This document shows, piece by piece, positions 43,187 to 47,494 of a stretch of DNA of 64,000 bases. The DNA is taken from contig NZ_RYFW01000004.1 of assembly GCF_004138335.1 (NCBI RefSeq), positions 1 through 64,000 on the forward strand, in the 5' to 3' direction. Each line of letters opens with the position of its first letter. Within the stretch, counting starts at the first letter, position 1. Below the pieces are notes generated by a model, which was not told the origin of the DNA, made no database searches, and saw nothing but the letters and a program-made list of their open reading frames with translations. This DNA is from Peristeroidobacter agariperforans (GTDB taxonomy: Bacteria > Pseudomonadota > Gammaproteobacteria > Steroidobacterales > Steroidobacteraceae). A program made the translations under genes and the position numbers.

Positions 43187-43200
43187 CGGATCCGCGATGG

Positions 43201-44814
43201 CGCGATCGGGATTTTCGTCGCTATGGCGGTCGGGGCCCGAGTCCGGCGGGCACGGGCAATCCATACAATCCTTTCGGTCGAACCGTGGCGGTCAATCGGT
43301 TGCTCACGGAATATTCGTCGCAAACGCAGTGGGTCGATTCGGAGTGGCTGCGCTGGGCTGTGGCCCTGCACGGCGACTGGAATCGTTGGAGCTGGGAACT
43401 GTCGGCGCTGCGCTCGGATGAGCAAGCGACAGCTGCGCTCAACAATGCGCTGGTGGCGGCAATGCGCGCGTCAGCCAATCCCGATCCATCGCAGGCCTTG
43501 AATCCTTTCTCCTCCGGCCCGATTGGCGATGCGAGGTTGTCGGAGAGCTTGCGCTTGCCGCCGGACGTGGACGAGTTCAGTTCCGGCGGTCAGCAGTTCT
43601 CGGGATTCGTGCAAGGTCCGATCTGGACTTTGCCAGGCGGTCCCATCACTGCTGTGTTGGGCGGCGAATGGCGCTCCGAGATGATGCGAGCTTCGAATGA
43701 ATTCGCTGGCTCGTTCGATCGCGATCGCGACATGGTCTCGGGCTTCGCCCAACTGCGCGTGCCTTCGTCAGCGACAAGCTGCGCGCGACATTGCCCGGTT
43801 TGCGGGAGGCTTACGGTCACCGCCGGCACTCGCCTGGACGATTACAGCGAGTTCGGCCGAGTGCTGCGCTCACAGATGGGCTTGATATGGAAGCCGCACC
43901 GTGACTTCAGCGTGCGCGTGTCTGGCGGCAGCAGCTTCCGCCCACCGTCGTTGTATGAATTGTATCTGCCGCGAATTTCGACGGTGGCGGCCGTGACAGA
44001 TCCGGCACGCGGCGAATTGGCCGCCGTCACATTGACCATGGGTGGTAATCGCGAACTCGAGCCGGTCACGGCACGATCCCTCACGGCCGGCGTGGTGTTC
44101 AGTCCGGACTCGGCGTGGAATTGGAATATCTCGGCCGACTGGTGGCGCATCGATATGAAGAATCGTGTGGATTCGTTGTCGCCGCAGCTGATGCTGGCCA
44201 ACGAGGCACTGTTCCAGGACCGTATCGTGCGCGATCCACCCACCGAAGCCGGTCGGGCTGGCGTACTGCGATCCATCGATTCGTCGCGCATCAATATCGG
44301 TGGCGTGAAGACTGCCGGCGTGGATCTCGGCATCAAAGCCGATTTCCTGACCGAGCTCGGACGCTTCACGCCGGAACTGCAAGCGACGTGGTTCGATCGG
44401 TTCGAGTCCACCGATGTGCCGGGCCAGGCGCCAGTGGACCGTGTCGATCTGGCTAGCGAGCTCGGCTCCATTCTCGACTGGCGCGCCGTCCTGTCATTGA
44501 GATGGAAGCGCGGAGCATTCGGCGCCGCCATGTTCGCGCGATACATCCCCTCTTATGACGATGCCATTGCCGGCGTGCGCACCGGCCGAACCATTGAGGC
44601 ACAGACTTTGTTCGATCTGCAGGGGGCGCTGGACTTCGGGCTGTTGTATGCCGGCGAGTCGCGACTGCAAGGACTGAAGCTTTGGGCGGGGGCGGTCAAC
44701 ATGTTCGATGAACAGCCGAGCTTTGCCGATATCGGCGCCGCCGGCGGCTTTGACTCGTCACAGGGCGAACTGAAGCAGCGCTCTTACTACATCCGCCTCG
44801 AAAAGGAATTCTAG
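43201..44814 (+). pseudogene. TonB-dependent receptor, N-terminal half missing
   Basis: Open from about 43,201 to TAG 44812-44814 with no start, signal peptide or plug domain. It opens mid-barrel (NPYNPFGRTVAVNRLLTEYS), a stretch normally about 350 residues into such receptors. Downstream barrel marks are SFRPPSLYELYLP, NRELEPVTARSLTAGVVF, VKTAGVDLGI and a normal end SYYIRLEKEF. Residues encoded at 43,771-43,805 are out of frame: the other frame gives FVSDKLRATLPGLRE, the expected text, so a one-base loss and a nearby one-base gain cancel. A GTG at 43285 could start a 509-residue product, but it would lack the plug. Confidence 0.85.
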
Positions 44815-44900
44815 GCGCCTTGCCGAAGTTCGGATGGAGCACGCATAGACTGCTGCTTTGCTCGATTCGACCCTGCTGTTTGGCTCGGGCGGTCACATAT

Positions 44901-44928
44901 CCGGGTGCATTCGGCCGCATGCACCCGG
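44901..44928. terminator. strong hairpin between the receptor relic and the small peptide gene
   Basis: CCGGGTGCAT and ATGCACCCGG form a perfect 10-bp stem with an 8-base loop. It begins 18 bp past the stop of the minus-strand peptide gene and 87 bp past the stop of the receptor relic, so it can serve both directions. No T-run. Confidence 0.5.
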
Positions 44929-44946
44929 ACGGTCGCGTTGCAGCCC

Positions 44947-45072
44947 TCAGCCAATCTCCGGCACCAGGCCCAAGCCAAAGACATTGTCAAAAAAGACCGG
45001 ATACGGCAGGAACTGCTTTGTTTCTTGCGTGGCATCGCCCAGATCGACCAGCTCGATGGGATCCGTCTTCAT
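44947..45072 (-). CDS. 41-residue peptide with lasso-precursor-like leader (candidate RiPP precursor)
   Basis: ATG 45072 has AAGGAG 7 bases upstream, stop TGA at 44947-44949, and a hairpin follows. The N-terminal half reads MKTDP, then IELVDLGDATQETKQ. The E-L-V-D-L-G-x-A-x-x-E-T-K order closely matches leaders of proteobacterial lasso-peptide precursors, where cleavage falls two residues after the Thr. The rest (FLPYPVFFDN, VFGLGLVPEIG) is hydrophobic, without Cys. A lasso core usually starts with Gly; here Gln follows the Lys. No lasso cyclase, B protein or other maturation gene is in the window, so this would be an orphan precursor or a related non-lasso peptide. It was too short for simple gene callers. 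Confidence 0.65.
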   Translation of the reverse strand: MKTDPIELVDLGDATQETKQFLPYPVFFDNVFGLGLVPEIG

Positions 45073-45425
45073 TGCCCTCTCCTTGAGATGCACGTCGAAC
45101 AACACGGGATGTATTGACCGGTGCGTTCAGGACCCTGCCATACCAACTTGGGATTGGAATTAAGGGACTGGCCGAGGGCGGGGCGGCCGCATTGCGATGG
45201 TCCGCGTCCTCCCTGGAGTTGTTGCCGATGCGTGCCCGGCGACCGATTGGGTGACAGACATTGAGTTATTGGTAATCGCGCGGTGTGATCTGCATCACTG
45301 TCTGCGCCAGGGTTGCACCGCAGGCGAGATGCGGTAAAGCCTGAAATCGGCTGTCCGGCGTCATGCCGGTCGCGGGCATGCCGATGTATCGGCCGATCGG
45401 CGACGGGCCGATATGAGGCTGCTGC
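45073..45425. other. divergent promoter region between the small peptide and porin genes
   Basis: About 350 bp with no gene. It contains a CRP-like palindrome at 45284-45299 and must hold the promoters of the minus-strand peptide gene and the plus-strand porin gene. No other clear structure was seen. Confidence 0.5.
45284..45299. promoter_or_regulatory. CRP/Clp-type site upstream of the porin gene
   Basis: TGTGATCTGCATCACT matches TGTGA-N6-TCACA at nine of ten defined bases. It lies about 130 bp upstream of the OprB-like start, in keeping with catabolite control of a sugar porin. Confidence 0.55.
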
Positions 45426-46625
45426 ATGAGCTGGGCGATATCGAAAAATCTTACCTTGATCGGTGCAGGCATCTGCGTCGCGTGCGCAGCCATGTCCGTG
45501 CAGGCGGGCGATCTCGCATCGAGCATGGAATTCAACGCAAGTTACACGAGTGACTTCTTTTCCAATCGCCGCGGCGGATTGCATCGTGGCGATCGCCACC
45601 TGGCCGATCTCACTGTTGCCGTCACGCTCGATATGGAGGAGCTGTGGGATATCCGGGGATTGAAGCTGTTTGTCTCCGGGCAGAGTAACGATGGCGGCGG
45701 CTTCTCGGACCGGTTTGTCGGCGACTCGTTCGCTGTCTCGAGCATCGACGCAGCGACGGCGTCGCGCTTCCTCGAAGCGGGTGCGGAGTGGGGATTGGGC
45801 GAAGACGGCGAGCATGGCTTGCGCGTCGGTCTGCTCGACTTGAATGCCGAGTTCGATGCGAGCGCTCTGCGCGCCTTGTACGTCAACTCGGTGTTCGGCA
45901 TCGGTCAGGATTTGAGTCAGAGCGGCGAGAACGGTCCCTCGATCTTTCCGACCACGGCCTTGGGCGTGACTTTGAGTTTGCAAGTTGCGCCTCAGTGGCA
46001 TTGGCTCAGCGCTGCCTTCGACGGCGTTGCTGGCGATCCGAACCGTCCCAAGACGACAACCGTGCAACTCCACGGACACGATGGTCTGTTGTTGATCTCG
46101 GAACTGCAGCGTCTCAGCGACGGTCGCGTGGAGAAGATGGCCTTCGGTGTGTGGGGCTACACGCAGGCGGCGAAACATTTGACCGCTGAAGGCGTGGAAC
46201 CGACGGGTTCAGGTCATAACCATGGGTGGTATGTTTCTGCGGACTCGCGTCTCGGTGCGCTGGATGAAGTGCGGCCCTGGCGCACCTCGCTGCGCATCGG
46301 TCACGCTGAGGAGGTCGTGAACGATCACGACTGGTCCGTGATCGCCGCTTTGAATTACGACGTGTCGCGTCCCATCGGGCGAGAACAGAGCTTCGGTATT
46401 GGCGCGGCCTGGATCAAAACATCATCGGCGCTGCGTGCGAGCGCGGAAGGCGTGGATGACTACGAGACAGCTGTCGAGCTGACTTGGCGCGCGGCGGTCA
46501 CCGATTGGCTGACGTTGCAGCCCGACGTTCAATACATCATCAATCCCGGATCACAGCGTTCGCTGCGCAACGCTGTGGTGGTGGGATTGCGCTTCGATAT
46601 TGCCGCACCGACGTTCAGCTGGTGA
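45426..46625 (+). CDS. OprB-type carbohydrate porin, 399 aa
   Basis: Signal peptide LTLIGAGICVACAAMSVQAGD. The body has OprB marks: EFNASYTSDFFSNRRGG, DLTVAVTLDMEELWDIRGLKLFV, GLRVGLLDLNAEFDAS and NSVFGIGQDLSQSG, and the end TLQPDVQYIINPGSQRSLRNAVVVG with VGLRFDI. OprB porins form 16-strand barrels that let sugars through the outer membrane. Next to a tonB gene and a receptor relic, so the locus may once have served carbohydrate or glycoside uptake. Confidence 0.9.
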   Translation: MSWAISKNLTLIGAGICVACAAMSVQAGDLASSMEFNASYTSDFFSNRRGGLHRGDRHLADLTVAVTLDMEELWDIRGLKLFVSGQSNDGGGFSDRFVGDSFAVSSIDAATASRFLEAGAEWGLGEDGEHGLRVGLLDLNAEFDASALRALYVNSVFGIGQDLSQSGENGPSIFPTTALGVTLSLQVAPQWHWLSAAFDGVAGDPNRPKTTTVQLHGHDGLLLISELQRLSDGRVEKMAFGVWGYTQAAKHLTAEGVEPTGSGHNHGWYVSADSRLGALDEVRPWRTSLRIGHAEEVVNDHDWSVIAALNYDVSRPIGREQSFGIGAAWIKTSSALRASAEGVDDYETAVELTWRAAVTDWLTLQPDVQYIINPGSQRSLRNAVVVGLRFDIAAPTFSW

Positions 46626-46665: not shown

Positions 46666-47331
46666 TCACATCCTGGTGTTGAGGCGGAAGGTCACGGGCA
46701 ACTGCTTCCACATCGCCATCGGCTTGCCATCGCTGGTGCCGGGGACGAAGCGCCATTTCTTCGCTTCACGCATCGCCGACTGATCGAGCTTGGCTATGCC
46801 GCTGGAGCTGATCAATCTCACATCGCCGACGCGGCCGTCAGCAAGAATATAGATCGACAACACCACCGTGCCTTCGCCGCCGCCGCGGATCACATCGGGC
46901 GGATAATACGGCTCGCTCAAGCCACGACGCGCATCGATGCGCGGCTCGACGACCATCGGCACCGGCGGCGCCACGCCGCCACCCTCGTCGACGAAGCTGT
47001 TCGGCGGCGTCGGGATGGGATCCACGATGGGCGCGCGATCCGAGGGCTCCGTGAACACATCGATCGGCGGCAGCGTGTAGGTAGGCGTGAGTTCCTTGAC
47101 GTCGATCCTGGCGTCCTTGATATCGACCGGTTTCGGCGGTTGGGGCTGCTGCGGCTGAGGCAGCAGAACCGGCGCCTGTGGCACGAATATTTTGGTGATT
47201 TTCTGAGTCATGCCATTGGTCAGCGCCCAGAAGAACCCCAGATGTAACAGCACGATGATCGCCAGCGCCCACGCGCGCGGCGAATTCCAGTTGTGCATCG
47301 ATGGAAAACTGTTAACCGTCATCGCAGACAT
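46666..47331 (-). CDS. TonB-family energy transducer, 221 aa
   Basis: ATG 47331 preceded by GGGAG. Single N-terminal membrane helix (AWALAIIVLLHLGFFWALTNG), containing the His found in TonB anchors; a Pro-rich spacer (PQPQQPQPPKPVDIKD and more); and a C-terminal domain (about 140-220) with GEGTVVLSIYILADGRVGDV and AKKWRFVPG. It carries proton-motive energy from ExbBD to outer-membrane receptors. No exbBD is adjacent, so it would borrow them. Confidence 0.92.
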   Translation of the reverse strand: MSAMTVNSFPSMHNWNSPRAWALAIIVLLHLGFFWALTNGMTQKITKIFVPQAPVLLPQPQQPQPPKPVDIKDARIDVKELTPTYTLPPIDVFTEPSDRAPIVDPIPTPPNSFVDEGGGVAPPVPMVVEPRIDARRGLSEPYYPPDVIRGGGEGTVVLSIYILADGRVGDVRLISSSGIAKLDQSAMREAKKWRFVPGTSDGKPMAMWKQLPVTFRLNTRM

Positions 47332-47494
47332 TCGTTTTGCTCCCACGTGTTTGTTTGATTCCCACCCGTGCGCATTACGCGCCTGTAAGAATCTGCTCCC
47401 GCGCGGTATACACCCGGAAGTAAGCACATTCCGGTTGCCCGGTTGGGGAATCTTTTGTGAGTTGGCGATGTCTTATTGGGCTGGAACGCGAGGC

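Follow-up and report, generated by a model that had tools for sequence, protein, structure and literature searches.

Mining for lasso peptides usually starts from the maturation enzymes and seeks the precursor beside them. In the prochlorosins, one enzyme serves many cores. The gene described here has a leader that resembles those of the isopeptidase-type lasso clusters (astexin, benenodin, sphingocin and relatives), as can be seen from the sphingocin precursor, ELIDLGSVTEETKG, in the accessible part of PMC11006600. In such clusters precursor, enzymes, isopeptidase and receptor stand together, and TonB-dependent transporters and sigma/anti-sigma pairs belong to them according to the accessible part of the review PMC9266682. 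Our locus, in contrast, consists of a precursor and a receptor gene alone, the core starts with Gln and places its acid at position 10, and no isopeptidase gene was found in the orphan loci of its family, that is, in those precursor loci that have no adjacent enzyme genes.

Metanodin is a lasso peptide from a Steroidobacterales soil metagenome (PMC12670498). As described in the accessible part of that paper, it comes from the same order as our gene, its precursor gene was missed by antiSMASH, and it carries Thr at -2; unlike our gene, it is accompanied by its own B, C and isopeptidase genes. Its first ring residue is unusual, being Asn1 in metanodin and Gln in its second closest match, and the Gln1 of our peptide is thus already foreshadowed in print. 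The same accessible text makes no mention of orphan precursors or of cassettes composed of a precursor and a receptor gene. For lanthipeptides with unclustered proteases, a precursor far from its maturation enzyme is described in the accessible part of PMC8960859. These RiPPs share the separation of precursor and enzyme with the orphan loci reported below, but they are lanthipeptides, and we found no case of a lasso peptide with remote enzymes in the accessible parts of the open-access literature searched.

The precursor gene and its family

The window, i.e., the whole stretch of 64,000 nucleotides of Peristeroidobacter agariperforans DNA that was analysed, contains a short gene with the following elements.

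44947..45072, minus strand: predicted lasso precursor gene A, 41 codons plus stop, translation MKTDPIELVDLGDATQETKQFLPYPVFFDNVFGLGLVPEIG
45016..45072, minus strand: leader of 19 residues with Thr at -2 and Lys at -1 (predicted cut site; T18 is invariant in the family rows)
44950..45015, minus strand: core of 22 residues with the predicted ring pair Q1 and D10 (from the acid positions in 26 family members)
45079..45084, minus strand: Shine-Dalgarno sequence AAGGAG in the upstream sequence, ending 6 bases 5' of the ATG
44899..44930, minus strand: hairpin 3' of A (from alignment and folds of four orthologous loci)

The original prediction had proposed a 41-residue gene at this place with a strong ribosome site, a proteobacterial lasso-type leader, a core that starts with Gln and holds one Asp at about position 10 and a late Glu, and a following 10-bp hairpin. 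Our analysis bears this out: the ORF runs on the minus strand from 45072 to 44947 behind the AAGGAG, the leader carries the motif D-L-G-D-A-x-x-E-T-K, which recurs in relatives inside lasso B/C operons, the core reads Q1...D10...E20, and the hairpin is present with 12 pairs, 11 of them Watson-Crick and one G-U. Comparable purine-rich stretches were seen by eye upstream of the 23 other family genes that were printed. The leader pattern occurs once in the six frames of the window and in none of 40 Markov-shuffled windows, a count that serves as a sanity check only, the pattern having been derived from the family itself.

When 98 genomes (own genome, genus, family and order) were searched with the single sequence, 13 matches, including the window gene itself, were obtained in six genomes, all of the same genus. 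With a 24-row profile, 28 matches were obtained in 10 of the 14 genus genomes (Steroidobacter group), of which 26 were accepted, again counting the window gene; two (G010:C1:2389606 and G008:C3:756726) were dropped as weak and, by eye, not precursor-like. The same profile matched 10 of 150 family genomes, all within the 14 genus genomes, and had no match in the remaining 136 genomes drawn. A 12-row profile matched 3 of 369 genomes of the class, two of the genus and one (G165) weakly, at core positions only (E 0.0024). Throughout the family the leader D-L-G-D-A-x-x-E-T-[K/R] is near-invariant, with T18 present in all 24 aligned rows, while the cores vary, and in 10 of the 26 members a B gene and an Asn_synthase-like cyclase gene follow the precursor. 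The homologous short ORFs, conserved leader, variable core and nearby asnB-like cyclase by which the original prediction proposed to check itself are all found in relatives, and a check for conservation confined to a longer protein or a promoter left the precursor reading standing.

The window peptide matches the benenodin model NF033522 (E 0.0055, 16.6 bits, cut-off 33) and the Subterisin model PF24178 (E 0.0022, 18.4 bits, cut-off 27), both below cut-off and over the leader part only; at E <= 1, 23 of 24 family members match the former (best 4.8e-6) and 19 of 24 the latter (best 3.9e-6). Precursors and PF13471, the lasso leader-peptidase (B2) domain, occur together in 10 of the 14 genus genomes and are both absent from the other four, one of which is 75% complete (Fisher P 0.001, with genomes counted as independent despite kinship). 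An invariant Thr at -2 is stated for lasso leaders in the accessible part of PMC10885120, and the window peptide has it at the predicted cut, T18-K19-Q20. The family itself, its co-occurrence with PF13471, a paralogue in a lasso B/C operon of the same genome and a cyclase gene directly downstream in two orthologues together support membership of the window gene in a lasso precursor family. We call it a variant rather than a canonical proteobacterial lasso precursor, since its predicted ring acid, D10, falls outside core positions 7-9.

For the 66 nt that hold the hairpin, the predicted fold has an energy of -33.2 kcal/mol (z -3.64), which 1 of 200 shuffles equals; stem and loop are identical across the four orthologous loci, and in two of these (G003 and G009) the hairpin lies between A and the cyclase gene. 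Between the window and its orthologue in Steroidobacter agaridevorans SA29-B (G001), 113 of 126 positions of the gene are identical, which does not exceed the conservation of the 128 bp directly upstream (114 of 125). The identical hairpin and the conserved upstream flank would be in keeping with an ORF that arose by chance over a promoter or hairpin element, but this reading has next to no probability given protein-level relatives with a conserved leader and a varying core, and it is contradicted by those relatives that lie inside enzyme operons.

Ring size and first core residue

If the cut falls after T-[K/R], 21 of the 26 members start their core with Q, 3 with E, 1 with G and 1 with C. 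D10 is the sole acid at core positions 7-10 in 16 of the 26, including the window gene and six members in complete operons; among the other cores, five have D9, one has D8 and four have acids at both 7 and 10. The window peptide thus has no acid at core 7-9, only D10, and the D10 cores would predict a 10-residue ring, which exceeds the 7-9 residues that the accessible part of PMC9266682 states for lasso rings. We found no 10-residue lasso ring in the literature searched on ring size.

The same enzymes might also make a different product: the core may begin after the Gln and form a 9-residue ring, or the peptide may be branched or linear, perhaps in pyroglutamyl form, instead of a threaded lasso. 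Counting the ring from residue 2 would bring our peptide back into the 7-9 range of that review's accessible part, and threading lies beyond what a sequence can tell. This outcome, which is compatible with the other readings of the locus, appears distinctly unlikely to us: a later cut would place Thr at -3, and a cut directly after T-x fits all 26 rows because of the first-residue counts and because six members carry their acid at 9 or 8.

Loss of the cyclase gene and of half the receptor gene

The window locus is syntenic across four genomes, those of the window, S. agaridevorans, Peristeroidobacter soli JW-3 (G003) and a Steroidobacter MAG (G009). In P. soli and the MAG, precursor and receptor gene are separated by a cyclase gene, with longest ORFs of 630 aa and 634 aa, respectively, which follows the precursor at a distance of 26 bp. 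S. agaridevorans has lost the cyclase; precursor and receptor gene are 64 bp apart, and the receptor keeps plug and barrel. Downstream of the hairpin, the window contains two remnants.

44818..44895, minus strand: relic of the cyclase gene C, 78 bp of its early codons, the remainder deleted (local alignment)
43198..44814, plus strand: 5'-truncated TonB-dependent receptor gene, convergent with A (PF00593 only)

The relic aligns with the P. soli cyclase gene at a score of 71 (best of 300 shuffles 31) and with that of the MAG at 70 (29). The receptor's open frame, 43285-44814, keeps the barrel and has lost plug and N terminus, and about 1.17 kb and 330 bp of the 5' half are missing relative to the S. 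agaridevorans copy. As judged from this alignment, the window copy is an orphan created by deletion, since only the 78-bp relic remains of the cyclase gene and the adjacent receptor gene is without its 5' half. That no cyclase, B or isopeptidase gene lies within the window, as had been noted before, holds for intact genes: no match of the own genome to PF13471 or PF00733 falls inside it, and none of the window ORFs of at least 110 aa was hit by phmmer when one B, one C and two isopeptidase sequences served as queries. The earlier statement missed the relic and the truncation of the adjacent receptor gene.

Upstream of the precursor, Pfam identifies an OprB-family porin gene (45426-46622, plus strand) and a TonB energy-transducer gene (46669-47427, minus strand), and similar ORFs are found at the corresponding places in P. 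soli and the MAG.

Orphan precursors beside receptor genes across the genus

The orphan state by deletion, its frequency in the genus and the receptor gene beside each orphan go beyond the original prediction. By adjacent enzymes, the 26 members comprise ten with B and C, two with C only, thirteen with neither, and one (L105) left outside these classes because it lies 417 bp from a contig end; its receptor gene is 280 bp off and runs in the same direction. All 13 orphans converge tail-to-tail on a TonB-dependent receptor gene at distances of -57 to 132 bp (for L104 taken from coordinates), a count that we give as raw 13/13 since neither orthologous loci nor related genomes can be counted as independent. 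Pfam finds plug and barrel in 12 of these 13 receptors and the barrel only in the window copy; among the 117 barrel-domain matches listed, at least the receptors of L017 and L064 do not appear. The contigs that carry L104 and L070 are 7.7 and 8.4 kb long, and enzymes could thus be located farther away; in both loci the receptor gene adjoins the precursor.

One enzyme-free cassette (L063, L066, L065 and L067) is kept in four species, in each of which the precursor lies about 16-21 kb from the nearest set-1 enzyme match (set 1 is described below); it is thus outside the operon, yet in the same neighbourhood. Sigma and FecR genes were both found by Pfam near L063 and L105, FecR near L065 and L022, and sigma near L066 and L067, where for L065, L066 and L067 the search covered the named gene only. 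Orphan or A-C loci occur in the six genomes that have a complete cluster of the D10 type and in none of the four with other clusters (Fisher P 0.005, genomes counted as independent despite kinship).

Constraint was assessed for the window pair and three orphan pairs. Two of the latter are constrained, L063/L066 with 9 nonsynonymous codons against 15.7 in neutral simulation and L022/L080 with 25 against 36.5 (0 of 2000 simulations as low in either case), and in L017/L081 a count of 19 against 17.4 (P 0.84) gives no sign of constraint. Between the window and S. agaridevorans, 6 nonsynonymous codons stand against 9.0 expected, a marginal result (P 0.046). This marginal constraint, DNA that is no more conserved than the immediate flank, the deleted cyclase and the truncated receptor gene would all suit a dead relic, a gene merely undecayed in a species that makes no mature peptide from it. 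We nevertheless consider a relic rather unlikely: the family-conserved residues, the Shine-Dalgarno sequence and the hairpin are all intact, the 126-bp gene and the next 48 bp have no indels against S. agaridevorans compared with 9 in 353 bp upstream, S. agaridevorans itself is also without the cyclase and yet keeps plug and barrel of its receptor, and further enzyme-free precursors persist across species.

Several orphans have features of their own. L022, L080 and L104 form a sub-group with an extra acid at core 7, a long C-terminal extension and a gene end that overlaps the 3' end of the receptor gene. In L017, L064 and L081, Cys11 stands just after Asp10 and a second Cys at or next to the C terminus, which would permit a disulfide bridge.

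We make no claim of an STN signalling domain in the orphan cassette receptors; matches in L016 and L067 are weak and below cut-off. The own genome has 15 STN matches, two of them in lasso loci, namely the receptors of set 1 (L016) and set 2 (L062).

Lasso enzyme sets elsewhere in the genome

The own genome (G000) carries two lasso B/C sets, both on contig C9. Set 1 adjoins a paralogous precursor, G000:C9:2576979, whose leader is near-identical to that of the window gene, and set-1 clusters, too, have a convergent receptor gene at their end. The set-2 enzymes lie at C9:2205515-2207758. Both B proteins exceed the lasso_biosyn_B2 cut-off of 33, with 59 bits for set 1 (L016) and 60.5 for the other; the PqqD-like part of the set-1 protein matches weakly, and the cyclases of both sets match lasso cyclase models below cut-off only. 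Set 2 (L062) includes an isopeptidase (NF033523, 521 bits against a cut-off of 400), as do clusters of G010 (183 bits, below cut-off), G002, G008 and G013; neither the window nor any orphan or set-1 locus gave a phmmer hit to an AtxE2-like isopeptidase.

Maturation in trans by set 1 is favoured because the leader of its precursor, IELLDLGDATIETK, closely resembles the orphan leaders, unlike the leader of set 2. Service by set 2 is less likely; its own precursor has the leader LGKVSKETK and a core with G1 and E9.

In set-2 clusters of P. soli (L068) and G011 (L074), putative precursors that read ...ETRDTKFLTDPE and ...EATRTGKDSIFTE lie upstream of B; their first core residue would be Asp or Thr, which would add further odd ring-forming residues in the genus. 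At L026 (G006:C93, 13735-17263), two cyclase-like genes stand face to face beside one precursor and a B gene, and a run of N divides the plus-strand copy into two ORFs.

In a cyclase tree, the enzymes of the P. soli and MAG loci (G003:C7 and G009:C49) fall on the set-1 side as a pair of their own (100/99, 13/21 rows, midpoint root). Since the two pair with each other, the tree neither establishes nor rules out their descent from set 1. Possible stages would lead from A-B-C converging on a receptor gene, as in set 1, to A-C (P. soli and the MAG), then to A with an intact receptor gene (S. agaridevorans) and finally to A with a truncated one (window).

Discussion

The sequence comparisons establish that the leader belongs to a family, that C has been lost and the receptor gene truncated, and that the genome contains an intact B/C set at another place, next to a paralogue with nearly the same leader. 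The window gene is probably a lasso precursor left behind after its neighbouring C was deleted and its receptor gene truncated, with a peptide that would still be made and matured in trans by set 1 on C9. In this process, two steps could be expected: First, the set-1 B protein would cut after Lys19. Second, the set-1 cyclase would join Gln1, through its amine, to the Asp10 side chain. Such products could then be ligands that are taken up or sensed via TonB-dependent receptors. The window copy itself may already be fading, as its own receptor is broken.

In our reading, the family consists of A-B-C-receptor units from which B and C have been shed, with a remaining set shared among them, and we infer that the dispersed precursor-receptor cassettes are matured in trans by one B/C set. 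In its full form, the view that cassettes with hypervariable cores, scattered over the chromosome, share one such set, that every peptide is paired with a TonB-dependent receptor of its own, in some cases along with sigma/anti-sigma genes, and that most products are Gln1-Asp10 rings of 10 residues, beyond the 7-9 of the review, is possible, and we hold it tentatively.

If precursors indeed reside in receptor cassettes away from their enzymes, many of them would be missed by enzyme-first mining. A ring of ten, if true, would extend the range of rings that lasso cyclases are known to form. One variable peptide per receptor would make the assignment of ligands to receptors, and the role of TonB-linked lasso peptides, directly testable.
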